From the NCBI GenBank assembly GCA_000155695.1, contig DS990592.1, forward strand, positions 1,822,556-1,886,555: a stretch of DNA of 64,000 nucleotides, read 5' to 3'. The notes under the pieces were generated by a model, which was not told the origin of the DNA, did no database searches, and worked only from the letters and a program-made list of their open reading frames with translations. Origin of the DNA: Verrucomicrobiia bacterium DG1235 (GTDB lineage: Bacteria; Verrucomicrobiota; Verrucomicrobiia; Opitutales; Opitutaceae). The translations under genes were made by a program, and so were the position numbers. Of this stretch, positions 5,809 through 34,858 are shown in pieces. Numbering within the stretch: the stretch's first letter is position 1; each line of letters starts with the position of its first letter.

Positions 5809-5844
5809 CGGAACACGAAACGCGCAACGTTACACGTTTCGCGC
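5809..5844 (+). repeat. 36-nt intergenic hairpin element, copy 1
   Basis: First of three near-identical 36-base copies (others at 6753-6788 and 34823-34858, same orientation). Positions 8-14 (CGAAACG) pair with 27-33 (CGTTTCG) around a 12-base loop containing AACGTTA. It lies between the convergent ends of the SNF2 and PaaX-like genes. There is no T-run after the stem, so it is not an ordinary terminator. The form resembles a REP-type palindromic element. Confidence 0.85.
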
Positions 5845-5891
5845 CCCAGCCCAACCCAACCTCAACTCTCATTTCACGCGAATCAAGTTGC

Positions 5892-6659
5892 TCAGCTTCC
5901 CTTAAACTTTCGAAAAACCGACGCCCTTAACTCGAACGCCTCTTTTCCTCTGTAATTATCAGGCAGCAATGCCTTCGGCAGAAACGGATCCAACTCAAAA
6001 GCTACCCGCCAAAGAGTGTTCTCTTCCTCCAACCAAATCCGAGCGCGCGCTTCATCCGAATCCGGCATCGGCCGACTCCTGAGAAAGGAAATGAGTTTCT
6101 CATAGGCCTCGTTAATTGCCTTAAAATCCCAGCCCTCTCTCACGATATCTCGATCCTCATTTAGACCAAACGGCTTCCCCTCGAAAAGCGCCATGCAAGA
6201 CGGCGGTATCTTGAGTCCTTCGATTTCCGCTTTCCAAGCCTCATCGAAAATGGGCGAAACCCGCACGCTACCCTGCAAACCTCCAAAGCGTCGCCTTTGC
6301 AGCCATTGATTCAGTTCCGTCCGGCGCTTCCTAGACGCGCTCGGCAAATCGAAAGTTATCAATCGCCAGACACCATCCCAATCCGCTTCCCAACGCCGAA
6401 CTGGATCAATCTCATCGGTAACATTGTTTATTCCCGCTTCGGTCAAGCGCGCCACCCACTGTCCCTCTTCACCTTCCACCTCGAGTTCCAACAAGCCATT
6501 CTTCTCCATCCTCCGAAGGTGTTTCAAAAAAGCTCGCTCATCCTCGTAGCTGCCTCCCCATCCCAAGCCACACCGCGGAGCGCTAAGCGACCGCAGGGCA
6601 TCAAGTCCAGCCGCGACCGAGAGTTCAATGATAAGGCGAGAGCGAATACCAAGACGCAT
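5892..6659 (-). CDS. PaaX-family transcriptional regulator (Cas2-like middle domain)
   Basis: About 255 residues with the three-part plan of PaaX, the repressor of phenylacetate degradation: an N-terminal winged helix (RSRLIIELSVAAGLD through the TEAGI segment), a central domain with DGVWRLITFDLP and RFGGLQGSVRVSP, known in the family to adopt a Cas2-like ferredoxin fold, and a helical C-terminus. No phenylacetate genes lie nearby, so the regulon is unknown. The frame extends upstream to a GTG (6701), but that adds only a hydrophobic leader unlike the family; the ATG at 6659 is preferred. Two copies of the 36-nt hairpin element flank it, one on each side. Confidence 0.8.
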   Translation of the reverse strand: MRLGIRSRLIIELSVAAGLDALRSLSAPRCGLGWGGSYEDERAFLKHLRRMEKNGLLELEVEGEEGQWVARLTEAGINNVTDEIDPVRRWEADWDGVWRLITFDLPSASRKRRTELNQWLQRRRFGGLQGSVRVSPIFDEAWKAEIEGLKIPPSCMALFEGKPFGLNEDRDIVREGWDFKAINEAYEKLISFLRSRPMPDSDEARARIWLEEENTLWRVAFELDPFLPKALLPDNYRGKEAFELRASVFRKFKGS

Positions 6660-6752
6660 AATAAACAAGAACAGGATTAGTAACAGAAAAGGTCCCAGCA
6701 CCCATAAACGCTACTTTAATAGAAAATAGAACCCTTTGAAATCACCATAGCT

Positions 6753-6788
6753 CGGAACGCGAAAAGCGCAACGTTACACTTTTCGCGC
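6753..6788 (+). repeat. 36-nt intergenic hairpin element, copy 2
   Basis: It differs from copy 1 at three positions. Two of them (13 C to A, 28 G to T) face each other in the stem, so the pair changes from C-G to A-T and pairing is kept. The third (7 A to G) creates an additional G-C pair at the base of the stem. It lies between the divergent PaaX-like gene and the unknown gene at 6884. Confidence 0.85.
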
Positions 6789-6883
6789 ACCACGCCTCCT
6801 ATTTCGCTTGGATCTCTTAAAAGAGCTTAACGTCTTTTGCGGAATTGATTGGCAAGATAAGCAACGTATCCGAATATTCTGAC

Positions 6884-7891
6884 ATGGCATTGAGACTTGG
6901 AGACTATATCGAAGGGGGAGAGCTTCTAAACCTTGAGACAAATACTACGCACGGCTGGCTGAAACTTAGAGGCATAGCCAAACCGCTGGGCTTCGAGCTA
7001 CTCGGAAATCCAGGCAAAGATCTTGTTGGAAGACATCTGAGATTCGAATGCTCTGCATCTCCCTTGAAATGCGAAGAGCGGCTGGACGCTCGAAATCTCC
7101 AATTGCCTGATCGTTTCATAGGGGCTACTGGAACGATGACGGCGAACCACCAAACCAGACTCTTCGACTGCTCCGTAGAAGAATTCCTAAGACTGTGCAA
7201 ACGCGGCACTCCACCACCTACCTTCTGGAAACGATGCGTTTATCTGGAATGGTTCGGCAATTGCGGACGAGTTCTACTAGAGCTTCCCGATCCGCGAGCC
7301 TATTTCGTCGAAGTGCTTGAAGGAAAAGAGATTCCCTTTCCGCTCGAGCCTCTTCCCGAGCCACCGCTTGACCAAAATGATCCTACTGGCGAATCAAGCC
7401 CCTTGGAAATTCTAGAAATATCAACTCAGGATGATGATACGCTAACGATCAACAAAACCAACATCTCACCTGATGAGGAAGAAGACCCATATGCGCTCTT
7501 TTCGGACGACTTCAAAAAGCTGATACAAACACAAGAGCCCGTAAAAACAAACACTCCTGATCAAGCCATAAACTACATTACCAGCATTCTAGACTCTTCC
7601 GAAGAAGGAGCCCCCCTGCGCTCACTCATAGGCCCAACTCCGGATTGGACGCAACTTGACGAGAAGCAGGTTGAAAATCACTTGAAACAGACCGTCGCTC
7701 TGCTTGCTCTACACAATATAGCTTTTCACATGTGCCCACATTTTACTTACGCCGATGCTGCTCGCTACCTATTCGAAGTTCTGGCCGATCAGGAATTGGC
7801 AAATTCTCAACTTAAGGGAACCTTGTGGTACGTCCACTACCATACCGCCGAGCATTGCGAGACCTGCGCAAAAACCTACCAAACGGACTAG
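6884..7891 (+). CDS. Conserved protein of unknown function
   Basis: 335 residues from the ATG at 6884; a TTG at 6845 would add 13 residues and neither has a good ribosome site. The N-terminal about 115 residues form a compact beta-rich unit (LNLETNTTHGWLKLRG, then a DLVGRHLRFE-type strand), a pattern I associate with uncharacterised Verrucomicrobiota and Planctomycetota proteins. Next comes an acidic, Pro-rich linker (about 155-230) and a helical C-terminus rich in His and Cys (MCPHF, HYHTAEHCETCAKT), which could bind a metal. No signal peptide or membrane segment is evident. No function is proposed. Confidence 0.7.
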   Translation: MALRLGDYIEGGELLNLETNTTHGWLKLRGIAKPLGFELLGNPGKDLVGRHLRFECSASPLKCEERLDARNLQLPDRFIGATGTMTANHQTRLFDCSVEEFLRLCKRGTPPPTFWKRCVYLEWFGNCGRVLLELPDPRAYFVEVLEGKEIPFPLEPLPEPPLDQNDPTGESSPLEILEISTQDDDTLTINKTNISPDEEEDPYALFSDDFKKLIQTQEPVKTNTPDQAINYITSILDSSEEGAPLRSLIGPTPDWTQLDEKQVENHLKQTVALLALHNIAFHMCPHFTYADAARYLFEVLADQELANSQLKGTLWYVHYHTAEHCETCAKTYQTD

Positions 7892-7937
7892 CAAGAGACT
7901 CGGATCATCGAGAGAAAAAGCCAGCATCAACGAAAGA

Positions 7938-8336
7938 CTAATAAAGCTCCAAGCCCTCGCTCGTTTCCTTCATCTTCAACACAGCCTTGCAGTCAATGCA
8001 ATCGGCACGCCTGGAAACCACCGGGACAGCAACCCAAAAAAACAGCAAGCTCAAGGCATTGAGCAAACTCAGCTGACGCGGTTTAACGTTCGTCGATCCA
8101 CAGCACGGACAGGTAAAAATGGTTTCCGACACTGCCGGCAACCCTAGCAGTTCCACCGCTCGCTCGTATTCAGAATCTGGAACTTCTAACTTAACACCGC
8201 CAATTGCCTGCGAATAAAACCAATCAACGCCTATCGTGTGACCGTCACGAATATTTGGAGACAACCCGCTCCCCTCCAAAACAGAGGCGGCCAAATACGC
8301 ATCATCCGCTTTCACATAGGCTCTGACAGTCTTCAT
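7938..8336 (-). CDS. DUF2007 protein with zinc ribbon and membrane segment
   Basis: 132 residues from the ATG at 8336. The N-terminal 70 residues (VRAYVKADDAYLAASVLEG, then VKLEVPDSEYERAVELL) match the DUF2007 ferredoxin-like fold, once described as a putative signal-transducing domain. A CPCC motif at about residue 78 and CIDC near 117 look like the two halves of a zinc ribbon, interrupted by a hydrophobic stretch (LSLLFFWVAVPVV) that may be a membrane segment. It starts four bases after the stop of the exonuclease gene upstream, so the two are cotranscribed. The frame continues upstream to 8432 only as overlap with that gene. Confidence 0.75.
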   Translation of the reverse strand: MKTVRAYVKADDAYLAASVLEGSGLSPNIRDGHTIGVDWFYSQAIGGVKLEVPDSEYERAVELLGLPAVSETIFTCPCCGSTNVKPRQLSLLNALSLLFFWVAVPVVSRRADCIDCKAVLKMKETSEGLELY

Positions 8337-8340
8337 CCGC

Positions 8341-9195
8341 TTACAGTCTTTTGTTCGCCAAAGCCTCGAGACGGTCCCACTCCTCGTTGTAGCGGATGAA
8401 GTGCTTCTTCCCTTTTCCAATCTCTTCGTCAAGCAAAGCCCTCACCAACGCTTGCTCCCTTTCATAGGCATCAGAGCTCAGCAAACCCGAGAAATGCGCG
8501 ATTCGCGCCCAAAGCAGATGAGTCGTGATTGCGTCATACTCATTATAGTCGAGAATGTCCTGAAGCTTCCCCTGCAACCATAGATCGGATACGAAGCCTC
8601 CTTCCGTATCCACTTTTCCGGGGATCCCCGACAATGTCGCGATCTCGTGCAAGCGCGGCGTCTGCCCCCAACGACCCACCATCGGAGCGAGATCCACATT
8701 ATGGTCTCCACTAGTCGCGAAATAATCGACACCCTCCCATGGCTTGTTCGGCCGCTCTCCCATTCCTTGCCCGAAAAGCCCATGCACGATCGCTCGCTGC
8801 ACGATTATCGGCACATCCGCGTTATGTGAATTGTAGCCGACGAGCTGAGGTTTCCGCGAGCCGATCGCTTTAAGAAGGCCTTTCAATATTGTACGCTCCT
8901 TTTCCTTTTCGGGATCGCCAGCAGTCGCTGGCAAGGTCACGAGCTTCAGCCTCACCTCTCCAGCAACGACCTCTCGCAGTACTCCAGAAACGGATACGAT
9001 GCGGCAGAGTACCGTTTTCAAGTAAGGCTGGGGCATTTCCTCCGTCGCTCCTCCCTCTTTCCAAAGCCGCTTCATCGCCTCCTCGGGTCCATGCGCTCCA
9101 CTAGGATTCACATCAAAAAGCATCTCCGCGCTCAGAGGATCGGGGATCCATTCCAGGTCGAAAGAAAACAAACAGGGCTCTACGGTCTTTAGCAC
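8341..9195 (-). CDS. Predicted 3'-5' exonuclease, PolB-like DEDD family
   Basis: 284 residues starting with GTG at 9193-9195. It has the layout of the DNA polymerase B exonuclease-like family (PF10108 type): motif I FDLEW at residues 12-16, motif II VGYNSHNADVPIIV near 121, and motif III DYNEYDAITTHLLWAR near 239. The Asp/Glu residues of the DEDD metal site are all present. Such stand-alone proteins are predicted to trim DNA or RNA from the 3' end; few have been studied. The start has to be this GTG or close to it, because motif I begins 12 residues in. It forms an operon with the DUF2007 gene. Confidence 0.85.
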   Translation of the reverse strand: MLKTVEPCLFSFDLEWIPDPLSAEMLFDVNPSGAHGPEEAMKRLWKEGGATEEMPQPYLKTVLCRIVSVSGVLREVVAGEVRLKLVTLPATAGDPEKEKERTILKGLLKAIGSRKPQLVGYNSHNADVPIIVQRAIVHGLFGQGMGERPNKPWEGVDYFATSGDHNVDLAPMVGRWGQTPRLHEIATLSGIPGKVDTEGGFVSDLWLQGKLQDILDYNEYDAITTHLLWARIAHFSGLLSSDAYEREQALVRALLDEEIGKGKKHFIRYNEEWDRLEALANKRL

Positions 9196-9274
9196 GGCAA
9201 GACTTATAGAACACTCCGCCCCCCCGTGTTAAGTCTTTCTTGCACAAGATACTCAGGTTTCCATTGTCCCTAGC

Positions 9275-10264
9275 ATGCCTTACGAATCTGAACTCTCTGT
9301 CGCAAAAGAAGCCGTCCGCAAAGCCTCTCTCCTCTGTTCCGCTGCCCAAAGCGGACTGGTGGACGCGGAAAAGCACGACAAGGCCGACAAATCGCCCGTC
9401 ACAGTCGCCGACTACGGCGCTCAAGCCCTCGTGCTCTCCACCCTTGCGCAAGCCTTTCCCGCAGATCCCGCCGTCGGCGAGGAAGACTCCAGCGACTTAC
9501 GTAAGACCGAAAACGCCGATCTCTTCTCCCGAGTCGTCGAATACGCGCAGAAAGTCGACTCTGCGCTCGACGCCGATTCCATACTCGCCGCCATCGACCG
9601 CGGCAACCACTCCGGCGGAGCCCAAGGCCGATTCTGGACCTTAGACCCAATCGACGGCACCAAAGGCTTCCTTCGCGGCGAGCAATACGCCGTCGCCCTC
9701 GCCCTCATCGAAAAAGGCGAAGTCGTCCTCGGCGTCCTCGGTTGCCCAAACCTTCCCGTAGATCCACGCAGCCCGGACAGTGAAAAAGGGTGCATTCTCT
9801 ACGCCGTGAAAGGCCAAGGCGCCTTTCAGGCTCCGCTGAGCGATATCTCCGCAGCCATCGCTATTTCAACCGATTCAGTCACCGATCCCGACAAAGCAGT
9901 TTTTTGCGAATCCGTAGAATCCGGGCACACCGCCCACGGTCGCTCGGCGGCCATCACCTCAGCCCTCGGCACTTCCGTAGAACCGTTCAGAATGGACAGC
10001 CAATGCAAATACGCCGCCGTCTCACGCGGGCAAGCCTCCGTCTACCTGCGTCTCCCAACGCGGCCCGGGTACGAGGAGAAGATATGGGACCACGCAGCCG
10101 GCTACATCGTTCTCCTCGAAGCGGGCGGGCGCATCTCCGACACTTTTGGCAAGGAATTGGATTTTTCCCTCGGCCAAACTCTCAAAAACAACAAAGGCAT
10201 CGTGGCTACATCCCCTGCCGTTTTTGAAACAGTCGTAAAAGCGGTCATCTCGTCGGCTAAATAG
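9275..10264 (+). CDS. 3'(2'),5'-bisphosphate nucleotidase (HAL2/CysQ type)
   Basis: 329 residues of the inositol monophosphatase superfamily. Metal-site motifs are intact: VGEED near residue 68, LDPIDGTKGFLRG near 126, and the late WDHAAGYIVLLEAGG near 273. The TKGFLRG wording and the long insert after VGEED point to the HAL2/SAL1 group, which dephosphorylates 3'-phosphoadenosine 5'-phosphate (PAP), a by-product of sulfate assimilation and sulfation, rather than to inositol monophosphatase itself. It stands alone, divergent from the exonuclease gene. The nearby nrnA gene product (46.3 kb) may also hydrolyse PAP. Confidence 0.88.
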   Translation: MPYESELSVAKEAVRKASLLCSAAQSGLVDAEKHDKADKSPVTVADYGAQALVLSTLAQAFPADPAVGEEDSSDLRKTENADLFSRVVEYAQKVDSALDADSILAAIDRGNHSGGAQGRFWTLDPIDGTKGFLRGEQYAVALALIEKGEVVLGVLGCPNLPVDPRSPDSEKGCILYAVKGQGAFQAPLSDISAAIAISTDSVTDPDKAVFCESVESGHTAHGRSAAITSALGTSVEPFRMDSQCKYAAVSRGQASVYLRLPTRPGYEEKIWDHAAGYIVLLEAGGRISDTFGKELDFSLGQTLKNNKGIVATSPAVFETVVKAVISSAK

Positions 10265-10500
10265 ACGAAAACTCCCCTTCGAAATACAGCGGAAGTATCT
10301 GGCCGCTGACTAGAGGGTTGTATTGCGACCCCGTTTCACGCCTTCCATCGACCAAATTCGATCGAGATACAAGGCAGAAGGGGCAATTATGGCCAGTGAA
10401 CAAGGTAGTTTCCTTATCGTTTATAGGTTTTTATCCTCTCTGGAAACACGAGCTCAAGTTTCACGAAAATAAAACGATCATAGAGTGCCGAACCTAAACA
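10265..10500. other. Gene-free region before the secretion operon
   Basis: No coding frame is convincing here. The region should contain the promoter of the type I secretion operon; AT-rich stretches at about 10418-10435 and 10468-10490 are candidates, but no clear -35/-10 pair stands out. A stop codon at 10495-10497 closes the TolC reading frame on its 5' side. Confidence 0.4.
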
Positions 10501-10599
10501 ATTAGCACTCTGAAAACTCAAAACTTAAGCCATTCTACCGACACGCGAAGGCATTCGACCCTCGCTCGTCGCCTCTCTATCTTCGCGATCGCCATCAGC

Positions 10600-11823
10600 T
10601 TGGCATGCCTCGCGACAAGCCGAGTCTCCGCGCAAACCCTCGCAGATGCGCTCGATGCAACGCTGGCGAACTACCCGAAAATCCGCGTTCTCGAGTCGCG
10701 CGTGCAGATAGAGCAAAACAAGCTCGGGGCCGAGCGCTCAAACCTTCGACCACAGCTCTCGCTCAGCATGCGAGGCGGCGAAGAACGATTCGGCAACGAC
10801 AAAGGCTTCCAAGTCTACGGCGAAACCGGAAACGCCTCGCTTTCCGGCAGGCAACTCCTCTTCGACGGCGGCAACACCAAGCACCGCATCACGGAAGCTC
10901 AGGCGAATCTTCGCACCAGCCAGGAGTCTTTGCGTCAGGTTCGGGAAGAACTCGCCCTCGAAATCTCCATCACCTACGTCAACGTTCTGAAATATACGCG
11001 CCTCACGGACCTCGCCGAGCAGAGCGTGTACCTCCACCAGGACGCTCTGGACAAAATCGAGCAGAAGTTCACTGCCGGAGCTGGACCCAAAGCTGACGTC
11101 ATTCTCGTCAAAGCCCGCCTCGCAATGGCCAAGGCCAGTCTCGAGGCAAGGAAACGCCAGCTCAAAATCGCCCACAACTCCTATCTAAAGCTCACCGGCT
11201 CCACGCCTTTCCAGCTCGTCGAACCAGACTTCCCTTACTGGGCAATGCCGGAGTCTATCGACGAAGTCACTTTCGAGAGTAATCCCAACGTGCGCACCGC
11301 GCATTCCGAACTTCAGGCCACCTACTCGCGTCGCAAAGTTGCGGAAAGCTCCTTTAGACCGAAGCTCAACTTCGTCGTCGAAGGAGACGCCGCCGAGTCC
11401 GACCGCTACGAAACCCTGCAGGAGGACGCCATGGCGCTGGTCACACTTTCATACAATATTTTCGACGGAGGTCGGCGACGCTCAGAAATTCGCAAAGCCA
11501 ACTCCCAGATCAATGAAGCAGACTGGAAGCTGAAGGACGCGCTCATAGAGACCGAAAATTCCTTCTCCAACGCATGGGATGAGCTTACCTCAACGGCCGA
11601 GCGTATAAATCTTTTGGAGACGCATCGCGATGCCATGGAATCCGTCGTCAGCGCCTACCACGAACAATTCGAGCTGGGAAAACGCCCCCTTATTAACCTG
11701 CTCGATGTGGAAAACGAACTCACCGCCGCGCGTGCCTCCGTCGAGGAGGAGCGCCTAAACCGTCTGCAAGCCGCCTACCGCCTCCTTTCCGCTATGGGCG
11801 AGCTTTCCACGTCCCTGAAATAA
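10600..11823 (+). CDS. TolC-family outer membrane channel of a type I secretion system
   Basis: 407 residues from TTG at 10600. The two outer-membrane efflux repeats are visible: LADALDATLANYPKIR with LRPQLSLSMRGG in the first, and TAHSELQATYSRRKVAESSFRPKLNF-type sequence in the second, plus a long coiled coil (AINLLE/RINLLETHRDAMES). It would form the trimeric channel for the ABC exporter and HlyD adaptor downstream. The start is odd: codons 10561-10599 read LARRLSIFAIAIS, which together with LACLATSRVSAQT makes a good signal peptide, yet no ATG, GTG or TTG exists between the stop at 10495 and 10600. Translation probably starts at a rare codon (ATT 10501 or CTG 10510). Confidence 0.85.
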   Translation: MACLATSRVSAQTLADALDATLANYPKIRVLESRVQIEQNKLGAERSNLRPQLSLSMRGGEERFGNDKGFQVYGETGNASLSGRQLLFDGGNTKHRITEAQANLRTSQESLRQVREELALEISITYVNVLKYTRLTDLAEQSVYLHQDALDKIEQKFTAGAGPKADVILVKARLAMAKASLEARKRQLKIAHNSYLKLTGSTPFQLVEPDFPYWAMPESIDEVTFESNPNVRTAHSELQATYSRRKVAESSFRPKLNFVVEGDAAESDRYETLQEDAMALVTLSYNIFDGGRRRSEIRKANSQINEADWKLKDALIETENSFSNAWDELTSTAERINLLETHRDAMESVVSAYHEQFELGKRPLINLLDVENELTAARASVEEERLNRLQAAYRLLSAMGELSTSLK

Positions 11824-11849
11824 CTGCCCCTACTAAAATCCCAATCCCG

Positions 11850-12725
11850 ATGAGTTCCATTCCAAATAGCAAAGTCTCCAAAGGAAAACTTCGTGTTCTC
11901 ATAGTCGAAGACTCGAAGATCGAGGCTAAGTTTACGGCGAACCTCCTTAAGAAAAACGGTTACGACGTCCTCAGCGAACGCGTCGAAACGGAGGAAGACA
12001 TGAAGCATCAGCTCGATGGGCAGGAGTGGGATATCATCATATCCGACTACCAGATGCCAGAGTTCGACGGCATGCGAGCGCTAGAGCTTTTTCAGAAATA
12101 CGAACTCGATATCCCCTTCATTCTCGTATCCGGAAAAATCGGAGAAGAGACTGCCGTCGACCTCATGAAAATGGGGGCACACGACTACATTATGAAGGGC
12201 AATACTGCCCGACTCCTGCCCGCAATCGAAAGCCACCTTAAGGACGCAGCCAACAGGCGGGACAAGCATCGGCTAGAAAGCAAACTACGCGAAAGCGAGG
12301 CCCAGTACCGCGGATTTTTCGAAAACGCAGCCATTGGCATCTTTCGCTGCGACAGCGAATGCAACCTCCTCGACGTAAATCATTTCCTTGCGGCAGCGCT
12401 CGGCTTCGAGACCACTGATGATTGTATAGCCGTATCTGAAAAATTGATACCAGAAGTGTACGATTCAGACACCCACAAAGCCGCGACTGTCGATCTCGCA
12501 GCCGAAGCGGAAGAAGGAGGCCGCTTCGAGGCGATTTTCCACAGACGGGACAATACCGTGATGGAGGCCATCATCAACGTATGGGCCATCCAAGACGAAT
12601 CCAGCCAAAGCATTTACCTTGAAGGCACCATCGAGGACGTAACCGAACAACGTGAAATGGAACGCAAGCTGCGCGAAATGGAACAGCTTCACGAGTCGCT
12701 GATCGACCTGACTAGCAACCTCTGA
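11850..12725 (+). CDS. REC-PAS protein inside the secretion operon
   Basis: 291 residues: a receiver domain (residues 14-130) with the acidic pair Glu20/Asp21, phospho-acceptor Asp66 (IIISDYQMP) and Lys116 (IMKGN), then a short coil and a PAS domain (about 145-275, YRGFFENAAIGIFRCD), ending in another coil (EREMERKLREMEQLHES-like). There is no DNA-binding, kinase or nucleotide-cyclase output. Sitting between tolC and the exporter ATPase, and overlapping the latter by one base, it may control export or assembly through protein contacts, or pass a signal to a kinase. It resembles the head of a larger kinase, but the stop is clean and the next gene is intact. Confidence 0.88.
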   Translation: MSSIPNSKVSKGKLRVLIVEDSKIEAKFTANLLKKNGYDVLSERVETEEDMKHQLDGQEWDIIISDYQMPEFDGMRALELFQKYELDIPFILVSGKIGEETAVDLMKMGAHDYIMKGNTARLLPAIESHLKDAANRRDKHRLESKLRESEAQYRGFFENAAIGIFRCDSECNLLDVNHFLAAALGFETTDDCIAVSEKLIPEVYDSDTHKAATVDLAAEAEEGGRFEAIFHRRDNTVMEAIINVWAIQDESSQSIYLEGTIEDVTEQREMERKLREMEQLHESLIDLTSNL

Positions 12726-14959: not shown

Positions 14960-14970
14960 CGTCACATCCC

Positions 14971-16458: not shown

Positions 16459-16489
16459 ATCTACAACTGTTTCAGTTCAGCAACGAGTA

Positions 16490-16515
16490 GGCCGCGGAGC
16501 AACCCGCGGCCTTTT
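16490..16515 (+). terminator. Intrinsic terminator of the secretion operon
   Basis: A perfect 8-bp GC-rich stem, GGCCGCGG / CCGCGGCC, with loop AGCAAC is followed by TTTT. It lies 32 bases after the hlyD-like stop and faces the convergent porin gene. Confidence 0.9.
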
Positions 16516-16548
16516 CATTTTGAACCTAACCCAAAACAGTTCGGAAAA

Positions 16549-17724: not shown

Positions 17725-17733
17725 ATAATTATG

Positions 17734-17759
17734 AATTAAAGAACATCTATTCTTTAATT
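17734..17759. promoter_or_regulatory. 26-bp AT-rich palindrome upstream of the porin
   Basis: AATTAAAGAA, six bases, then TTCTTTAATT: ten perfectly paired positions. It is placed 10 bases upstream of the porin ATG on the minus strand, where a regulator could block transcription or translation. Symmetry of this length is rare by chance. It could also form a hairpin in the 5' leader. Confidence 0.55.
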
Positions 17760-17920
17760 GGACAACATCAGAATTGCGAATCTTCATAAAAATCCTCCGC
17801 AGACTCCTCTAGCCCGGCAGAAGCCACTCATGACTTCGAACCGCAATTTGCTGGGTCGTTTGTTGAAGGACGGCTTGAGCTGGGTGACTCCGTCGAAGTG
17901 TCCCCTCCCGCCAAATCGAG

Positions 17921-18133: not shown

Positions 18134-18138
18134 TTTAG

Positions 18139-22455: not shown

Positions 22456-22490
22456 TCTTGATTTCTGTCAGAACAATGGACGATCGCGGA

Positions 22491-25471: not shown

Positions 25472-25489
25472 CCAGCCCCCTTCGTCCCG

Positions 25490-28400
25490 ATGAAGCCGAC
25501 CCTCCTTTATTCGTTTCTTGCTCTCGCTGCCTCCTCCCTATTCTCACAGTCACGCCAGCCAGACAGCTCGTCCGCTGCATCGCCCCAAATAGACGGCATT
25601 CCCTTCTACCAAATCTACGAGGAGAAGGACATCGAAGACGCTTCCCGAGGCAACTTCATCACTTCCTCGCCAGACGGGAGACTCTTTCTTGGAAACGAAA
25701 CGGGAATTTACACATTCGACGGATCTAACTGGAACCTGATACTCAAAACTGTCGCCACTCGCGACAAAGTAAGATCCATATTTTGGGATGACGACATCGT
25801 CTACGCCTCGGGCTATGGAACCATTGGCCGCCTGAACTTCGAGCAAATGAACGGAGTTCAGTACGAGCCAATCAACAAAGCGCCGATCTCAAAAAACGCT
25901 AGCGAAGTTTACTATCGAATCCACAAGGCCGAAAACACCATATACTTCATTGGCGAACGGAGCGTCATTTCTTACCAGCCAGATACTGAACAAATCAAAA
26001 CGCGCCAACTAGACTCTTGGATAAAGGGCTCAATTGTATTTAAGAACCAACTACTCGTCGCCACATCGAATGACGGAGTCATCGTCTTTAGCGAAAACGA
26101 ATCAGAAATCCACCCAGCATTCGGCGAATTCACGCAAAACCAAGTCATCACGAATTTTGCCGTAAACAGCTCTCAAGACCTCTATTTCGTCACGCAGAGC
26201 AATGAAGTCTACCGTGTTTCCAGTGGAGACGAAATCGATTCGTACCAACGGTTCAATTACGAATCTAAAAGCCAAATCGTCGATTTGGCGTTTATCTCCG
26301 ACGATCTCCTCGCCCTGTCCGTATCGGGCGAAGGGATCATTCTAGTAGACGACACGGGCTCATACGTCACATCCCTCGAAAAATCCGTAGACTACCGCTG
26401 GGCAGCTACAGGCATGCTTCACGTCGACAAATTCGGAACCCTTTGGACCCTTTTCAATTCCACAGTCGGCAAGGTCCTCTTCGACTGTCCACTCACCACC
26501 ATTGACGAACGGCTCCGCCCAAGCCTCATCTACCCAATCGCTCACGAATACAACGGCCGCGTATACATACGAAACGAAGGAAAACTCTACACAACTCAGC
26601 ACGACCAGAACGGAAAACTAACAAACCTAATCGACGCAGCGCCAGATCTTCCAAGCTCAGTATCCGTCGGGCTCGCCGCTCCAGATGGAATCTACATCCA
26701 CGCCGAAACAGACACCTACCTACTTAACGAAAACGGATTAAACCTTCTCGGCCACATTGGGCGTATCGATAGGCTAACTACATTTCCAAGCGATCCTAAC
26801 CTCCTCCTCGCCATGTCAACCTCCGACATTAAAATCCTTCGACGCGAAGGCATGGAGCTCAAGAAAACCGAATCCAGACCCCATACAATCGGCTTCGTCA
26901 ACAAAATCGCAAAACAATCAAACGACGTTTTCTGGCTTGAAATCGGCCTCGGGCGAGTTGGCCGCGTTTGGATCGAGGACGGAAAACCGCAATACAGAAT
27001 CTTCGACGCCAAGGACGGACTACCGCCGGACTGGGTAGCGATATGGGAGCACGAAGGAAAAGTCTTGTTTACCGAAAACAAAGGCATCTACGAATACAAA
27101 GAATCCTCGCAAAGATTTTCTAGAGTCCACGATTTCGAAGAATATTTCCCTTCCGGAAAAGGTTCGTTTCATCGAGTCGCTACTGACCGGGACGGCAACA
27201 TTTGGGCGTCGTATGATTACTACAACTACATACTCTGGAAACAAAAAGACGGCAGCTACCTCAAAGATGGTACAACCCTTAGCCAACTCGGTCAGCTCTA
27301 CGCGAATGAGTTCAAGTTTCTGGACAATGGAGATACGCTCATTCTCACGGCGACTGAGCTTTTTCACGTAGACAAATCCCGGATCGATGTTTCTGAAGAG
27401 CCGTCGGCGAACTCTCTCAAGCTCCTAGAAGTTTCGAACGTGCGCGGTCATGAAACCTACTTCATGAGCCCTGGACACAAATCCGAGACTCCCAAGCTGG
27501 AATTCGGAAAAACACAACGCAGCCTCGCTTTTCGTTTTGGCAATTCATATTCAGCTACGCTCAAGCAACCTAGCTTTCAGTACTACCTGAAAGGCATTTC
27601 GAAAGACTGGTCGAAATGGAGTACGTCTAACGAAATGCTGTTCACCAAGCTCGATGCCGGCGACTACTCCCTTCAAGTCCGATCTCGACTAGACGATGAC
27701 GAATCCACAAACGAACTTGCAATCGCCTTCTCCGTACCTTCATTTTTCTGGGAGACTCCGCTTGCCTACTTCCTCTATACGATCGCTACAATTGTTTTAC
27801 TGAATTTTGGATACCGCTACTTTACTCGAAGCCTCAAGAGCGCGAACGAGAAGCTGGAGCTAATGGTTGCCGAACGTACGCGCGAAATCGAATCCAAGAA
27901 CTCCGAGCTGCAGAAAAACACCCTGGAACTGGAATTGGCGCTCGACGAGCTCCGGAACGCGCAGGACATGCTCATAAACACCTCACGCAAAGCGGGCATG
28001 GCAGAGGTCGCCACCAACGTGCTACACAACGTCGGCAACGTACTAAACAGCATCAACGTAGGAATCGTTTCGCTCTCAGACCGCCTCGAACTCGAGCGCG
28101 TATCCAAACTAGCCAAAGTCTCAGAGCTCATCAACGCCCACGAACACGACCTGGGTCGCTTTCTCACTCAAGACACGAAGGGCAAGACAATCCCCTCCTA
28201 CCTTACTCAGCTGTCCAAAGTTCTCCAAGACGACTTCGCCCACTACAAGGTCGAGATCGACTGCATGTCCGAAAACATCGAACATGTGAAGAAGATCATC
28301 GCCACCCAGCAGGCGCATGCCAAAACCATCGACGTCTTCCAAACCGTGAACCTTCAAGAACTCATAGATTCCGCGATCGCTATGATAATGGAAGACCTGG

Positions 28401-28861
28401 ACCACACCTTCTTCGAAGTCTCTCGAGACTATGAGCCTGGCCTCGAGATCGTCTCCGACAAGCATCGCATTCTTCAGATGACGACGAACTTCATCAAGAA
28501 CGCCAAAGAGTCGATCAAAGACGCGGAAGTCCCCTTCGGCCTCATCAACATTTCCGCAAGAACCATGGAAGACAAAAACTTCGTCCGTATCCAAGTTTCG
28601 GATAACGGTGGCGGCATCTCAGACGAGCATACTCAAAAGATCTTCACCCACGGTTTCACAACCAAGCAAGAAGGCCATGGCTTCGGAATGCATAGCAGCG
28701 CCAATTCAGCCAAAGTTCTCGGCGGAGACCTTCAAATCGAAAGCAAGGGAACAAACAAAGGAGCAACCGTTACACTCGTGCTTCCAGTAACTCCCCCAAA
28801 TCAGCAGAAAAACAGCCCTCGCCCGAAAAACGAAAGGGGCATTTGCTTCTCTGAAAACTAG
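25490..28861 (+). CDS. Sensor histidine kinase with periplasmic beta-propeller (two-component regulator propeller type)
   Basis: 1123 residues. A signal peptide (LLYSFLALAASSLFSQS) leads to a large propeller (about 30-670) with repeats of the NIWASYDYYN / TLWTLFNS kind, and a Y_Y_Y domain (FQYYLKGISKDWSKW, about 690-750). One membrane helix (about 757-780) and a coiled coil (LELMVAERTREIESKNSEL) lead to a kinase core with His846 in the variant box VLHNVGNVLNSINVGI and an ATPase with FIKNAKESI, DNGGGI and HGFGMHSSA. Such sensors in Bacteroidetes often detect polysaccharide fragments. There is no AraC domain or receiver; the preceding hybrid kinase may receive the phosphate. Confidence 0.92.
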   Translation: MKPTLLYSFLALAASSLFSQSRQPDSSSAASPQIDGIPFYQIYEEKDIEDASRGNFITSSPDGRLFLGNETGIYTFDGSNWNLILKTVATRDKVRSIFWDDDIVYASGYGTIGRLNFEQMNGVQYEPINKAPISKNASEVYYRIHKAENTIYFIGERSVISYQPDTEQIKTRQLDSWIKGSIVFKNQLLVATSNDGVIVFSENESEIHPAFGEFTQNQVITNFAVNSSQDLYFVTQSNEVYRVSSGDEIDSYQRFNYESKSQIVDLAFISDDLLALSVSGEGIILVDDTGSYVTSLEKSVDYRWAATGMLHVDKFGTLWTLFNSTVGKVLFDCPLTTIDERLRPSLIYPIAHEYNGRVYIRNEGKLYTTQHDQNGKLTNLIDAAPDLPSSVSVGLAAPDGIYIHAETDTYLLNENGLNLLGHIGRIDRLTTFPSDPNLLLAMSTSDIKILRREGMELKKTESRPHTIGFVNKIAKQSNDVFWLEIGLGRVGRVWIEDGKPQYRIFDAKDGLPPDWVAIWEHEGKVLFTENKGIYEYKESSQRFSRVHDFEEYFPSGKGSFHRVATDRDGNIWASYDYYNYILWKQKDGSYLKDGTTLSQLGQLYANEFKFLDNGDTLILTATELFHVDKSRIDVSEEPSANSLKLLEVSNVRGHETYFMSPGHKSETPKLEFGKTQRSLAFRFGNSYSATLKQPSFQYYLKGISKDWSKWSTSNEMLFTKLDAGDYSLQVRSRLDDDESTNELAIAFSVPSFFWETPLAYFLYTIATIVLLNFGYRYFTRSLKSANEKLELMVAERTREIESKNSELQKNTLELELALDELRNAQDMLINTSRKAGMAEVATNVLHNVGNVLNSINVGIVSLSDRLELERVSKLAKVSELINAHEHDLGRFLTQDTKGKTIPSYLTQLSKVLQDDFAHYKVEIDCMSENIEHVKKIIATQQAHAKTIDVFQTVNLQELIDSAIAMIMEDLDHTFFEVSRDYEPGLEIVSDKHRILQMTTNFIKNAKESIKDAEVPFGLINISARTMEDKNFVRIQVSDNGGGISDEHTQKIFTHGFTTKQEGHGFGMHSSANSAKVLGGDLQIESKGTNKGATVTLVLPVTPPNQQKNSPRPKNERGICFSEN

Positions 28862-28867
28862 CCGCTT

Positions 28868-30196
28868 CTACTTCGCTAGTCCAAAACGACTAGTGAACGG
28901 GTAGTAGATCATTATCGGACGACCGACAACCGCTTCAGCCGGCACGTATCCCCATACCCGACCATCCGAGCTGTTGTGGCTATTGTCCCCGATCGCGAGA
29001 AAATGCCCTTCGGGCACTGTCTGATCCTGCGATAGGTCCACTGTCAATCGTCCTGACTTGCCCTTCATGGTGGTATAGCCTCCGTAGCCATCCTCCATTT
29101 TCGAATTCTTCTCGAATGCGACTGATCCAGTGGCTGGCTCGCCGTTCACCATCAAAGACGTGCCGTCGATGCGAACCTTGTCTCCCCCAGTACCCACCAG
29201 TCGTTTAATATAGAATTTATCCTCAGCAACGGTCGGAATGGAATCCGTCTTGAAAACGAAACCGTCTCCAACTTTTGGCGACACGAAATGGTAGGACATG
29301 CGATCCACGAAAAGCTGGTCGCCCGTCATTAGGTCAAAGCTCAGCAGGTTCTCCCCTTCCTCCACTGTTCTACCTGTCTTCAGCAGATGAAGCGTCACAT
29401 TCACATTCCGTTTCGATCGCGGATCATAGACGACCTCGGTCGTCGTGCCGGCAAACGAACTTGGATTTATTCTCACACGAAACGGTATGTTATCATACGG
29501 CGTTTGCTTTCCCGCTTCCTGAAGCGGCGCGATTACCTCGCGATCCAACACGAAATCGGCAGGATACTTGAACGCTACACGCTCATCACCCACATAAAAG
29601 GCACGCTCTATTCCCGGAGAGTTAATCAAAAAATAGCGCTTCACCGTCGCAGGACTTTGGAAAATCTCGTACACGCCCCGCGAGACTTCCCTCATGGGAA
29701 TCAGCAACTCTCCATTCGCCGGAGCTTCGACACTGTAGTGCTTTGCTCCATACGTGACGAACCGGAATGCGCGCTCAATTCCACCCGGCGCTTCGCTCTC
29801 ATCATGGTAGACCTCGCCCGTCATGCCGTAGTAAGTCGGCCACATCGAATTGGTAGGGATCTTGAACGGCTTTATGAAAAAGGTCGTGAAACCGACGTAG
29901 ATAATCAAAGCCGCAAAGAAAAACTCCACGTTCTCCGCCATCGAGCTGCGCGGATAATAGTTACCGCCTACCTGTTCCATGTGCTTTTTCAGACCCTCTA
30001 TCGCGGAACGGAGCCGACTGTCCGCCGACTTGTCCTTCATCCCCGCTTTCACCTCTTCGCTGAGTTGCACAAGCGTCGAAAGCTCCGCGGCGCTTAGCCT
30101 GTCCTTGCGGAAATGATACACCTTGCCCGCGTGATAGAGCCAATTCTTAGCGGATTCGCGCAACTTCGAGGATTCAGATTTAAACACGGAAAACAT
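28868..30196 (-). CDS. lepB: Signal peptidase I with a long insertion
   Basis: 442 residues, against 324 in E. coli. A basic/helical N-terminus of about 85 residues precedes one clear membrane helix (FFFAALIIYVGFTTFFI), then box B IPTNSMWPT with nucleophile Ser117, box D FYIKRLVGTGGDK with general base Lys331, and box E GDNSHNSSDGR at 403-413. It removes signal peptides from exported proteins at the periplasmic face. The Ser-Lys distance is 214 residues compared with 55 in E. coli (Ser90, Lys145), so about 160 residues are inserted; this stretch is beta-rich. It follows lepA, the classic lepA-lepB order. Its stop lies seven bases from that of the opposing sensor kinase. Confidence 0.93.
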   Translation of the reverse strand: MFSVFKSESSKLRESAKNWLYHAGKVYHFRKDRLSAAELSTLVQLSEEVKAGMKDKSADSRLRSAIEGLKKHMEQVGGNYYPRSSMAENVEFFFAALIIYVGFTTFFIKPFKIPTNSMWPTYYGMTGEVYHDESEAPGGIERAFRFVTYGAKHYSVEAPANGELLIPMREVSRGVYEIFQSPATVKRYFLINSPGIERAFYVGDERVAFKYPADFVLDREVIAPLQEAGKQTPYDNIPFRVRINPSSFAGTTTEVVYDPRSKRNVNVTLHLLKTGRTVEEGENLLSFDLMTGDQLFVDRMSYHFVSPKVGDGFVFKTDSIPTVAEDKFYIKRLVGTGGDKVRIDGTSLMVNGEPATGSVAFEKNSKMEDGYGGYTTMKGKSGRLTVDLSQDQTVPEGHFLAIGDNSHNSSDGRVWGYVPAEAVVGRPIMIYYPFTSRFGLAK

Positions 30197-30288
30197 AGGG
30201 CTTCACTTGGAGAAAGCCAGACACTGGCCAGCCAACTACGATCCCGCGAGCGAAAAATTGACCGAAAACAGGCGTAGCCTCCGGCCGA

Positions 30289-32085
30289 CTAGTCGTTCTT
30301 CAAGACCTTGATAAAGGCGTCCGGCGGTATCGACACGTTGCCGATATTCTTCATCTTCCGCTTACCTTCCTTCTGCTTGTCGAGCAGCTTGCGCTTGCGG
30401 GAAATGTCACCGCCGTAACACTTGGCAGTCACGTCCTTACGCATAGTGCGAACATTGTCTCGAGCTACGATTTTTCCGCCGATCGCCGCCTGAACCGCAA
30501 TCTTGAAAAGGTGCGGCGGGATAATATCCGCCAGCTTCGTACAGAGCTCACCACCCTTGTTGTGCGCCTTATCCGTATGCACAATCGAGGAAAACGCGTC
30601 TACCGGCTCCCCGTTTACGAGGATGTCCATCTTCACTAGCTTGGCCGGACGATACTCTCCGAGCTCGTACTCCATCGAGCCATAGCCGCGAGTGATGCTC
30701 TTCAAGCGATCGTTGAAATCGACCAGGATTTCATTCAGGGGCAAAATACACTCCAAAATCAAACGGCTGCCATCGAGCGTATCGGTTCGCTCGCAGGACC
30801 CGCGCTTCTCCATCACCAGAGCAAGAATATCCCCCACGCAATCGTTTGGCACGTGGATGTGAGCGACAATCGTCGGCTCGAAAATCGTCTCGATGAACGA
30901 GGGATCGGGAAGATTGATCGGATTATCGACCTCGATCTCCTCCCCATTCTGCTTCTGCACCTTGTAAACAACACTTGGATACGTCGAAATGATATCCACT
31001 CCGTACTCGCGACGAATACGCTCCTGGATAATTTCCATGTGCAACAAACCAAGAAAACCGCAGCGAAACCCGAAGCCAAGCGCCACCGAGCTTTCCGCCT
31101 GAAAGCTGAAAGCGGCATCGTTGAGCTGAAGCTTCGCCATGCTCGCCTTGAGCTTTTCGAAATCTTGCGTCTCCACAGGATAGATACCGCTGAAGACCAT
31201 AGGGCGAACTTCCTTGTAGCCGGGCAACATCTCCTTGGCCGGGTTCGCGTACTGAGTAATCGTGTCGCCAACTTTGATATCCGCGGGATTCTTGATGTTG
31301 CACACCATGTAGCCGACGTCGCCCGCTTCCAAAGCGTCTACCTTTTTCTGGGCGGGCGTGAATACGCCGACTTCCTTTACTTCCGCCCGAGTGTGGTCGC
31401 TCATCATGAGAACCTGATCCTTCGGCTTGATAGATCCCGAAAAGACGCGCACGAAAGCGATCGCCCCGCGGTAGGCATCGTAAAGAGAATCGAACACCAA
31501 GCACCGAGTCGCTTCGTATTCAGTCCAACGAGGGGGCGGGATTCGGTTAACCACCGCTTCCAAAATGTCCTCGATCCCGATTCCGGTTTTACCGCTAGCG
31601 AGAATAGCGTCCTCCGCAGGAATCGCCAAAAGATCCTCAAGCTGCTGCAGGCAAAGATCGAGGTTCGCGCTCGGCAAATCGATTTTGTTGATAACAGGAA
31701 TGATGGTCAGCCCCTGCTCCTCGGCGAGATGGGCGTTGGCCACCGTCTGCGCTTCAACACCTTGAGCAGCGTCGATCAGCAACAAGGCGCCCTCGCAAGC
31801 TGCCAAACTGCGGGAAACTTCGTATGAGAAGTCCACGTGCCCCGGCGTATCCGCTAAATTGAGCTGATAGGTCGTACCATCCTTGGCCGGATAGACGAGC
31901 GTCACCGGGTGGCTCTTGATCGTGATGCCGCGCTCGCGCTCCAGATCCATCGAATCCAGATGCTGAGCCTCAAGGACGCGCTGCGCCACCGTGTTCGTGT
32001 GTTCGAGCAGACGGTCGGACAGAGTCGTCTTCCCATGATCGACATGGGCTATGATACTGAAATTGCGCTTGTTTACCGTCTCCAT
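30289..32085 (-). CDS. lepA: Elongation factor 4 (LepA), ribosomal GTPase
   Basis: 598 residues, the usual length. G-domain motifs are intact: G1 AHVDHGKTT at 13-21, RGITIKS, G3 DTPGHVDF and G4 NKIDLP. Domain II follows, then EF-G-like domains III and V, and the LepA-specific C-terminal domain ending with the basic segment SRKRKLLDKQKEGKRKMK. It binds stalled or mistranslocated ribosomes and can promote back-translocation or help 30S biogenesis. It is encoded between fabD and lepB on the same strand, with gaps of about 110 and 92 bases. Confidence 0.98.
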   Translation of the reverse strand: METVNKRNFSIIAHVDHGKTTLSDRLLEHTNTVAQRVLEAQHLDSMDLERERGITIKSHPVTLVYPAKDGTTYQLNLADTPGHVDFSYEVSRSLAACEGALLLIDAAQGVEAQTVANAHLAEEQGLTIIPVINKIDLPSANLDLCLQQLEDLLAIPAEDAILASGKTGIGIEDILEAVVNRIPPPRWTEYEATRCLVFDSLYDAYRGAIAFVRVFSGSIKPKDQVLMMSDHTRAEVKEVGVFTPAQKKVDALEAGDVGYMVCNIKNPADIKVGDTITQYANPAKEMLPGYKEVRPMVFSGIYPVETQDFEKLKASMAKLQLNDAAFSFQAESSVALGFGFRCGFLGLLHMEIIQERIRREYGVDIISTYPSVVYKVQKQNGEEIEVDNPINLPDPSFIETIFEPTIVAHIHVPNDCVGDILALVMEKRGSCERTDTLDGSRLILECILPLNEILVDFNDRLKSITRGYGSMEYELGEYRPAKLVKMDILVNGEPVDAFSSIVHTDKAHNKGGELCTKLADIIPPHLFKIAVQAAIGGKIVARDNVRTMRKDVTAKCYGGDISRKRKLLDKQKEGKRKMKNIGNVSIPPDAFIKVLKND

Positions 32086-32194
32086 ACGAAAAGCGGAAGA
32101 AGTTGATCACTACACTCCCGTCTTACAAGTATCAATGTATAGGTAGCGTTCGCCACCCGTTTCACCGCTTCGAGATTGCCAAAGCGTTTGACAA

Positions 32195-33100
32195 TTAGGC
32201 CTGCAAATCCGCCCAAGTCTCAAAAGCGGCGTTCGCCCACTCCCGATTCGTGCGCTTGACCTGCCCCTTAAGCACTCCGCCCACGCCGAGCTCCCAGAAG
32301 AGATCCACGCCTGCCGCAGCCGCGCTAACCATGCAATCCTCCCAAAGCACCGAGGACACGACCTGCTTCACCAAAGCCTCGCGAATCGCATTCGGCTCGG
32401 AAACTCGCTCGCCCGTCGTATTCGTGAAAACCATCAACTGCGGGGCCTTGAACTCCACTCCAGCCAAAAATTCTGCAAACGCGGAGCACGCCGGCTGCAT
32501 CAAGCGACTGTGATAAGCGCCAGCCACGTCGAGCTGCATGATTCGGCGAAAACCACGCTCCTTGCCCGCTTCAACCGCTGCGGCGATCTTCGCAGTCTCT
32601 CCGGAAATCACGATCTGACCCGGACAATTAAGATTCGCCATCTCCACGTCCATCTCCTCGCAAAACGCCGCTACCACATCGCGCTCGACGCCGATCACCG
32701 CCGCCATCGAGCCATTCGTCGCCTCGCAGGCCTCCTGCATCAGACGACCGCGCTCGGCCACAACCTTCAGACCGGTCTCAAAATCAAAAACGCCCGCCAC
32801 GGTCATCGCCGTCACCTCGCCGAGACTCAAGCCCATCGCCACCTTCACATCGTCCAGTTTGCCCTGAGCTTTCATGATCTCGTAGACCGCCATGCCGTGC
32901 ACGAAAAGCGCCACCTGACAGACTTTCGTCTCCGTCAAAGCCTCCTGCGGACCCTCGAAAGAAAACTCCGTCAGCTTCCAGCCGAGAACCTCGTCAGCCT
33001 TGTCATAGAGAGCGCGAGCGATTTCGCTATTCTCGTAGAGATCCTTGCCCATGCCCACCTTCTGGGCGCCTTGTCCGGAAAACATCAAAGCGGTCGTCAT
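32195..33100 (-). CDS. fabD: Malonyl-CoA:ACP transacylase
   Basis: 302 codons from the ATG at 33100, which begins MTTALMFSGQGAQKVGMG, the canonical N-terminus; 13 codons further upstream are not needed. FabD loads malonyl groups on acyl carrier protein for fatty-acid synthesis. The nucleophile motif reads GLSLGE instead of the usual GHSLGE, so the residue before the catalytic Ser is Leu. The second catalytic His is present (VAGAYHSRLM), as is the Gln of the oxyanion loop in SGQGAQ. No other fab gene is adjacent; lepA follows. The assignment is firm despite the changed residue. Confidence 0.94.
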   Translation of the reverse strand: MTTALMFSGQGAQKVGMGKDLYENSEIARALYDKADEVLGWKLTEFSFEGPQEALTETKVCQVALFVHGMAVYEIMKAQGKLDDVKVAMGLSLGEVTAMTVAGVFDFETGLKVVAERGRLMQEACEATNGSMAAVIGVERDVVAAFCEEMDVEMANLNCPGQIVISGETAKIAAAVEAGKERGFRRIMQLDVAGAYHSRLMQPACSAFAEFLAGVEFKAPQLMVFTNTTGERVSEPNAIREALVKQVVSSVLWEDCMVSAAAAGVDLFWELGVGGVLKGQVKRTNREWANAAFETWADLQA

Positions 33101-33175
33101 ATGAGCAATCTTGCCAAAGCATTTCCGCAGCCCTGACAACCAAAAAACACGTAATCCAATGCCCGCAGGCCTAGC

Positions 33176-34705
33176 CTACTCCGCCGAATATTCGTCCAGA
33201 CGCTTCTTCAATGTGTTTCGCGTGATCCCGAGAATTTCCGCCGCGCGAGCCTGGTTTCCTCCCGTTTCGCCAATCGCGCGCTCGATCATCTGACGCTCGA
33301 TCAAAGTGAGAATTCGCATCTCCTGTCGCTCGCGCAGCTCGTGATAAAGCTTATCGTAAATTGCAGGCAGCGAAATCGGCATCGGCTCCGGTATCGACGT
33401 CGCTAGCGGAGCCTCCACCGGCTCCTCTTTGGAATCCGTCTCTGCTGCAGATGCCTGCGGTTCAACCGGAGCCGCAACACTCGTCTGCGACGACGCGGCG
33501 GACACCACCGGAGCTGCCGGAGCTTCACCCCGCCCTCCCCGAATCGTATCGGGCAAATCCTTCATCAGGATCGCGTCGCCCTGAGCGACCACCGCGCTTC
33601 GGTAAACCACATTTCCCAGCTCCCGCACATTGCCGGGCCAGCCATAGGCGACCAAAGCGTTCAAGGCATCCGGCGACACCCGCGTCACCCGCGCCTTCTT
33701 CTCCTTCACCAAATTTTGCAGCATGAAGTCCACGATATCCGGAACGTCCTCCTTGCGCTCCTTGAGCGACGGCACACGAATCCGAAACACGTTCAAGCGA
33801 TAGTACAGATCCTCGCGAAACTCCTTATCCTCGACCATCTTCTCGAGATCCTTGTTGGTCGCCGCAATCACCCGCACGTCGACCTTGATCGTCTCCGTTC
33901 CGCCCACGCGCTGGATCTCCCCCTCCTGCAACACGCGCAAAATCTTCGTCTGCGTCGCCAAAGCCATATCCCCGATCTCATCGAGAAAAATCGTCCCGCG
34001 ATCGCACTGCTCGAAGCGTCCAATACGCTGAGTCGTCGCCCCAGTAAACGATCCCTTCTCATGACCAAAAAGCTCGCTCTCGATCAGATTGTCCGGAATC
34101 GCCGCGCAATTCACCGCCACAAACGGACCGCCGGACCGCAAGCTGTGCTGATAAATACACTTCGCGATCAGCTCCTTGCCCGTGCCACTCTCGCCGGTCA
34201 CCAGCACCGTCGCGTCGCTGGCAGCCACCTGGCCGATTACTTTGAAAACTTCCTGCATCGCAGGCGAATTCCCCACGATCCCTTCCTTGTAGTCGTCGTA
34301 GTTAACCTTCTTCTCGTAGCGATTCGCCGACTTCAAATCCTGCGATGAGCTAATCGCCTTCTCCGCGATCTCGATCACCTTATCGACGTCGAAAGGCTTC
34401 ATAATATAGTCGTAGGCCCCGAACTTCATCGCCTCGATCGCCGTCTGAGCCGTGCCAAACGCCGTCATCAGCACGATCTGCAAACTCGAGCTCGCCGAAC
34501 GCATATGCTGCAAGGTCTCGATCCCCGAGATCCCGCCCATGCGCACGTCGCACATGATCAAGTCCGGCTTCAACCCGCCCTTGATCTTCTCAATCCCCTC
34601 CTCGCCGCTCGCCGCAGTCTCGATTTGGTAGCCGCGACTTCCAAGTACGCGGCCTAGGGAATAACGGATCTCCTCGTCGTCATCGACGATCAATATGGTG
34701 CTCAT
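33176..34705 (-). CDS. NtrC-family sigma-54-dependent response regulator
   Basis: 509 residues from ATG at 34705. Receiver domain with phospho-acceptor Asp53 ([10 protein letters not shown]; Gly replaces the usual Pro), AAA+ domain with Walker A GESGTGKE, the sigma-54 contact loop as GSFTGA (Ser for Ala in GAFTGA), Walker [10 protein letters not shown], then an Ala/Pro/Glu-rich linker of about 70 residues and a Fis-type helix-turn-helix ([20 protein letters not shown]). It activates sigma-54 promoters after phosphorylation. No partner kinase is adjacent, so the signal is unknown. The long flexible linker before the DNA-binding helix is unusual for the family. Confidence 0.94.
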
Positions 34706-34822
34706 GTTAGTTTCGGGAAGCATTCAGCTTGGCTTTTTGGGAATCCACTAGAACAGCGCAACCCCATAAGCCCGCAACAGCAATTTCCATACCCCAAAAA
34801 TCCATACTCTCAACCCACGCTC

Positions 34823-34858
34823 AGGAACACGAAACGCGCAACCTTACACGTTTCGCGC
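34823..34858 (+). repeat. 36-nt intergenic hairpin element, copy 3
   Basis: It differs from copy 1 only at position 1 and at position 21 in the loop (G to C); the stem CGAAACG/CGTTTCG is identical. It lies between the NtrC-type gene and the M50-like gene, about 29 kb from the other two copies and in the same orientation. Confidence 0.85.

Follow-up and report, generated by a model that had tools for sequence, protein, structure and literature searches.

A window of 64 kb, the whole stretch of DNA analysed here (C6:1822556-1886555), was taken from a marine Pelagicoccus genome of 5,775,745 bases (5.78 Mb) in 6 contigs, labelled G000. It holds three intergenic copies of a 40-nucleotide (nt) palindrome, designated family 1, and the first two bracket a gene at 5892-6701 for a PaaX-like protein. 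The features, in coordinates of the window, are as follows.

5809 to 5848, minus strand: family 1 copy 1 (40 nt), 3' of the PaaX-like gene, in the gap where this gene and an SNF2-type helicase gene converge
5892 to 6701, minus strand: PaaX-family protein with a Cas2-like domain, 269 amino acids (aa) from a GTG start (PF20803, 1.3e-15; PF08223, 1.2e-6)
6753 to 6792, minus strand: family 1 copy 2 (40 nt), 5' of the PaaX-like gene, bearing the sole compensated change of stem pair 13:28
34823 to 34862, minus strand: family 1 copy 3 (40 nt), a dispersed copy flanked by two minus-strand open reading frames
3261 to 5735, plus strand: SNF2-related helicase gene, given for context; its Pelagicoccus mobilis orthologue also lies tail to tail with a bracketed paaX gene

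A preceding sequence-only reading had reported three copies in the same orientation at 5809-5844, 6753-6788 and 34823-34858, sharing 31 to 34 of 36 bases. This holds: copies 1 and 2 share 33 bases, copies 1 and 3 share 34, and copies 2 and 3 share 31. Alignment of 18 copies defines the conserved unit as a 40-mer on the minus strand, with an invariant column 1, minority letters in 9/18 copies in the preceding column, and a blurrier 3' boundary at about columns 39 to 41. These 18 copies come from a genome-wide pattern search allowing up to 3 mismatches (0 matches for the reversed-pattern control), and the covariance-model search proposed by the earlier reading recovers the identical set at 61 to 72 bits; its remaining rows are the opposite strand of the same 18 places, bar one at E = 7.4. 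The copies are intergenic, dispersed through the genome, few and unevenly spaced. A functionless local duplication, the case that the reading had set against itself, is rejected by the dispersal of the 18 copies. The flanks lack the T-run of an intrinsic terminator, in agreement with the view that these are not plain terminators. Membership in a described RNA family was likewise rejected, as Rfam 15 at gathering score matches two tRNAs only in the window and leaves the palindrome unmatched. A relation to parS was rejected too, since the sole parS-like match (up to 2 mismatches) lies elsewhere, at C6:3.83 Mb, and the reversed control also gives 1 match per strand. A LacI-type operator was considered as a possibility in view of a likeness of TGCAACGTTGCA.

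The hairpin noticed in the sequence-only reading is present, but the strand read there is the weak one. Folding of the three window copies shows that the minus strand forms an 18- to 20-bp hairpin with G.U pairs and a tetraloop, at -30.0, -24.8 and -27.7 kcal/mol for copies 1 to 3 (0/200 shuffles as good for each), against -11.5, -15.0 and -13.6 kcal/mol for the plus strand. DNA folding parameters also favour the minus strand in 3/3 copies, by a smaller margin.

Selection on this structure had been proposed from a single two-sided change between copies 1 and 2, C-G to A-T at pair 13:28, with an additional pair from position 7. Both changes are present in the letters, yet they do not in themselves demonstrate such selection: the 13:28 change is the only two-sided one among the family 1 copies of this genome, the pair is altered without compensation in 5 other copies, and covariation within the genome (18 copies) is not above chance, with 183/500 shuffles reaching the score. 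The case for structure comes instead from other species and a second palindrome family. Across 27 copies of three species, two-sided changes occur in 8/18 pairs and the covariation score is 0.367 versus 0.201 (0/500 shuffles; slid controls at most 0.170), a comparison in which the shuffles, here and below, leave the relatedness of the copies in place. Covariation in relatives, which the earlier reading had proposed to look for, is therefore found. Taken by itself, the set of Pelagicoccus sp. IP29b_bin.57 (G005; 17 copies, of which 11 are distinct) has two-sided changes in 4 pairs (0.174 versus 0.107, 0/500), and 12/17 copies are fully Watson-Crick over 18 pairs; in the second family, family 2 (16 copies, 9 distinct), there are 3 two-sided pairs (0.102 versus 0.061, 2/500). 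Stems thus remain paired as their sequence changes, with compensation in two other Pelagicoccus species and in family 2.

The bracketed gene encodes a protein with the domain architecture of PaaX repressors. PaaX_M and PaaX_C pass their Pfam cut-offs (57.7/24 and 29.3/22 bits), as they do in two homologues, and an alternative ATG at 6659 matches the start of the relatives' proteins. The three proteins score 56.2, 50.3 and 45.5 bits with the NCBIfam PaaX equivalog TIGR02277, far below its cut-off of 264.55 bits. A direct Cas2 model (PF09827) is weak, at E 0.12 in 1/3 proteins. A structure model from 3 sequences (pLDDT 72, pTM 0.72; the other four models, 58 to 60) places the predicted fold closest to PaaX 8a39 (E 4.8e-9), then 3kfw and 3l09, with Cas2 structures at E ≥0.14. 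By its Pfam description the middle domain is Cas2-like, and it has the strand-end Asp of Cas2. An FDLP motif after the Cas2-like strand is kept in 4/4 bracketed proteins and in 0/4 PaaX controls, the latter being four genes from three plasmids and E. coli K-12, a small set that does not sample the whole family. The proteins here therefore differ from PaaX repressors in their equivalog score, in keeping FDLP and in being flanked by palindromes; with Cas2 of CRISPR-Cas they share the middle domain and differ in the weakness of the direct match.

The association of such genes with palindromes recurs in further units.

L144 6179-6218 and 7067-7106: palindromes round the PaaX homologue of P. mobilis KCTC 13126 (G004), the second overlapping the gene end
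L179 5093-5132 and 6033-6072: palindromes round the PaaX homologue of G005, at a different locus
L275 8997-9036 and 9878-9923: family 2 pair round a second PaaX-like gene of the genome under study
L275 9070-9852, minus strand: the second PaaX-like gene, bracketed by the family 2 palindromes

The P. mobilis homologue is 48% identical over 245-249 aa, and its unit lies beside the orthologue of the SNF2-type helicase, again tail to tail; the G005 homologue is 44% identical to the first PaaX of this genome. Each is flanked by its species' own palindrome type. Family 2 emerged from a palindrome census of 1.47 Mb of the genome under study; its 40-bp palindromes have AACGTT at their centre, as those of family 1 do, and occur at 16 places by pattern plus 1 by inspection, the pattern being found in none of the 7 other Pelagicoccus genomes. 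The second PaaX is 36% identical to the first, 38% to that of G005 and 33% to that of P. mobilis, so that two palindrome types in one genome go with two PaaX types. In all four units, the closest palindrome pair of the set, 884 to 944 bp apart, encloses a PaaX-like gene; the chance expectation of such a pair is about 0.05 per family of 18-copy size. The best palindrome score at both gene ends (pairs minus twice the mismatches) is 14 to 21 for the four Pelagicoccus genes and 7 to 12 for the four PaaX controls. Unselected DNA (1.2 Mb from this genome, 396 kb from P. mobilis) holds no further PaaX-like gene, viral contigs hold no PaaX relative, and plasmids give 3 weak PaaX matches only, all actinobacterial. 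Within this genus there is good support for a link of palindrome type with PaaX type.

The family 1 core itself (up to 2 mismatches) is found in 0/56 relatives; a looser palindromic core occurs at 6 places in P. mobilis and 4 in G005, and in none of 54 other relatives. A three-species model matches 9/150 family genomes, with 18 copies in the genome under study, 6 in P. mobilis, 17 in G005 and 1 apiece in six genomes from outside the genus; one extra G005 copy lies in L187. The other five Pelagicoccus genomes are all negative (5/5) by pattern and first model; with the three-species model G001, G002, G003 and G006 are negative and G007 is not among the rows listed. By eye, the six other-genus matches comprise one cousin-like sequence (L159, G124), one different perfect hairpin (L156, G141) and four that look like chance, and no PaaX-like gene lies within 3.8 to 20 kb round them. 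Eight non-Pelagicoccus pattern matches, whose loci lack PaaX, were treated as chance. The hairpin of L156 (sequence L277) is long and perfect (arms GAAAAGTGTAACC/GGTTACACTTTTC), differs in its loop and resembles a family 1 half-site. In G005 some palindromes (L148, L150, L151, L182, L186, L187, L189 and L190) sit within longer shared flanks of 57 to 148 bp at 73 to 98% identity, and several G005 flanks lengthen the palindrome by 4 to 6 copy-specific base pairs.

The family 1 copies are also polar with respect to replication. GC skew is strong (|skew| ≥0.1 in 17/20 samples of 20 kb, L105-L124 on C6), and its sign switches at 0.55-1.10 Mb and 3.58-3.85 Mb. The parS-like palindrome at 3.83 Mb adjoins putative mnmE and mnmG genes, read from translations. 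We accordingly put the replication origin, oriC, at 3.83 Mb and treat the G-rich strand as the leading one. The strand of the strong hairpin is then the locally G-rich, putative leading strand, and likewise the lagging-strand template, in 18/18 family 1 copies (p = 7.6e-6; 3.1e-5 for 16). No small subunit (SSU) rRNA was found in the assembly, and rRNA orientation thus gives no confirmation of the leading strand. The dnaA gene, at C6:1.997 Mb, is far from the putative origin and not at a skew switch; across the whole of C6 the skew is very strong, with a G+T-rich leading strand.

Minority letters in family 1 are lopsided, with 5 in the 5' arm and 34 in the 3' arm. Mutation of symmetric palindromes was rejected as the source of the family 1 polarity, with T15 and T17 present in 18/18 copies and no C-to-T change at C13, C25 or C27. 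In the other sets T.G mismatches outnumber A.C on the G-rich strand by 22 to 7 (P. mobilis 14:5, G005 5:1, family 2 3:1); GC skew is weak in G005. This lean could reflect strand-biased mutation, and mutation of symmetric palindromes may likewise account for polarity in those sets. In most codirectional family 1 gaps the flanking genes run opposite to the strong hairpin strand, on which we make no claim, as the background has the same bias (67/96 codirectional gaps of the samples, by gene caller).

Positions of the palindromes turn over between species. When the flanks of family 1 copies are compared with those of P. mobilis copies, a match exceeding 55 bp occurs at the paaX locus alone. Outside it, the palindrome is present in one species only at 4/4 sites comparable on both sides, namely L147 and L143 of P. 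mobilis against this genome and L130 and L265 of this genome against P. mobilis; for L127 the comparison extends to a single side. One operon, matched at the protein level, adjoins palindromes both in this genome (family 2, L272) and in G005 (L183); the two genomes have them at opposite ends of the pair of genes.

Short intergenic palindromes in many dispersed copies, here 18, recall repetitive extragenic palindromes (REPs) and their REP-associated tyrosine transposases (RAYTs), together termed REPtrons. According to PMC8266576 and PMC3733652, REPtrons have species-specific types, several per genome, and a partner gene with co-evolving cognate palindromes at its flanks. REP-like repeats are widespread, and the partner genes described for them are Y1/HUH transposases, with CGTC repeats reportedly lacking a dedicated one (PMC3733652). 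The partner here differs in being PaaX/Cas2-like, and the palindromes differ from REPs in being long and nearly perfect (40 bp), in 6 to 18 copies as opposed to hundreds. The REP-type guess of the sequence-only reading therefore stands as regards a dispersed hairpin family and falls as regards a canonical REP: beside the 18 copies the tags GTAG, CGTC and TGTC occur 0 times and GGAG 3 times, and 0/30 Y1 loci in 8 Pelagicoccus genomes have the palindrome within 1.8 to 3.4 kb (one, L207, has a core 10-mer, not in a hairpin). The strong hairpin on the other strand, the 18/18 polarity and the PaaX/Cas2-like gene between copies 1 and 2 are additions to that reading.

On balance we favour, with some reserve, a REP/REPtron-like family of repeats in which a PaaX/Cas2-fold protein takes the place of a Y1 transposase as partner. 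The relation of the roughly 40-bp palindromes to the partner gene lying between two of them would be that of REPs to RAYT genes. Taken together, turnover, polarity and an anatomy like that of REPtrons suggest that the palindromes are moved or copied by the protein: it would bind the hairpin or cruciform and so cause copying or insertion, the Asp of FDLP may form part of a Cas2-like nuclease site, and processing probably acts on the hairpin in single-stranded form in the lagging-strand template, a state that would explain the polarity. If so, this would be a new route for the spread and maintenance of palindromes and a DNA-processing role for relatives of proteins annotated as repressors, with a bearing on the origin of the Cas2 of CRISPR adaptation. 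More speculatively, and here we are inclined to doubt, PaaX/Cas2-fold proteins could be the enzymes of bacterial palindrome elements that form a class of their own, in which a single-stranded 40-nt hairpin on the lagging-strand template is copied or inserted in fixed orientation; that would make them a non-HUH counterpart of REPtrons and possibly a relic of the way in which Cas2 acquired its handling of DNA ends. We found no literature linking PaaX to Cas2 or Cas2-like proteins or to an inverted repeat plus transposase, preprints and most subscription papers being outside the scope of the search, and the papers on PaaX and palindromes are, judged by title, not about repeats.

Several points weigh against the favoured explanation. 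Proteins of this kind have no known activity, and Cas2 itself is not known to act as an integrase. Fixed orientation is seen in family 1 only, families of perfect palindromes being unable to display it. Three of the site comparisons differ in gap length by about 85, 109 and 210 bp, with no clean empty site or target duplication, and in the L143 comparison this genome has about 730 bp of unrelated DNA instead; because empty sites are not clean, site-by-site loss by deletion rather than gain is possible. Units are known from three species only, with none found outside the genus. Within this genome 5/6 changes at pair 13:28 are uncompensated; P. mobilis copies are imperfect, and on the 5' side of its gene the best score comes from a different hairpin, the palindrome there, recognised by the looser core and the three-species model, having decayed. 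Finally, it was the palindromes that led to all four PaaX genes, a route that gives no unbiased rate and could miss palindrome-free genes.

The chief rival holds that the palindromes are operators of a PaaX-like regulator controlling itself and about 17 other genes, with operator and regulator changing together in each species. E. coli PaaX, the best structural and sequence match, is a repressor; the sites are palindromic and many lie 18 to 250 nt upstream of a gene start. We nonetheless regard a regulon as unlikely, because the arms change in matched fashion in G005, which two independent half-sites would not need, 13/57 copies lie between convergent genes (gene caller; 2 others at contig edges unclassed), and a second site lies at the 3' end of every PaaX gene. 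The fixed 18/18 orientation argues the same way, as do neighbour genes that are not common to the species bar the paaX locus, the L272/L183 operon being approached from opposite ends.

A still less probable alternative is that a Y1 (HUH) or other transposase encoded elsewhere in the genome mobilises a REP-like family, with the bracketed PaaX gene as a passenger. This genome has two Y1_Tnp genes of about 330 aa, and at least one is present in 8/8 Pelagicoccus genomes. IS200/IS605 elements share hairpin ends and single-strand, lagging-template polarity with the units described here; the abstract of PMC6006769 likewise has Y1 elements favouring the lagging-strand template. Unlike IS200/IS605, however, the unit has no Y1 transposase inside or beside it, neither palindrome kind occurs at the 30 Y1 loci, Y1 genes are also present in 5 species without the palindrome, and GTAG/CGTC tags are absent from all 18 copies. 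Beside a Y1_Tnp gene on contig C33 of G007 (L208/L282, 1210-1257) is a perfect 48-nt palindrome, possibly of that genome's own family.

An element acting in RNA, as a factor-dependent terminator, mRNA 3' stabiliser or processing hairpin, would suit a strong fold reliant on G.U pairs and intergenic copies, but is improbable in view of the missing Rfam match and T-run, of divergent positions (1/18, 4/18 and 4/15 in three sets; window copy 2 by hand) and of a strong strand antisense to the flanking genes in most codirectional family 1 gaps. Selected polar chromosome sites, for instance for priming, fork passage or segregation, would fit the 18/18 polarity and the 22-to-7 T.G excess, yet are the most improbable of all given few, unevenly spaced copies, their absence by pattern or first model from 5/8 Pelagicoccus genomes, and an excess outside family 1 that may be strand-biased mutation.

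Elsewhere in this genome, near the putative terminus, five similar palindromes lie among short genes at about 3456-9480 of L108 (C6:825001-845000). We take these to resemble the attC sites of an integron cassette array.

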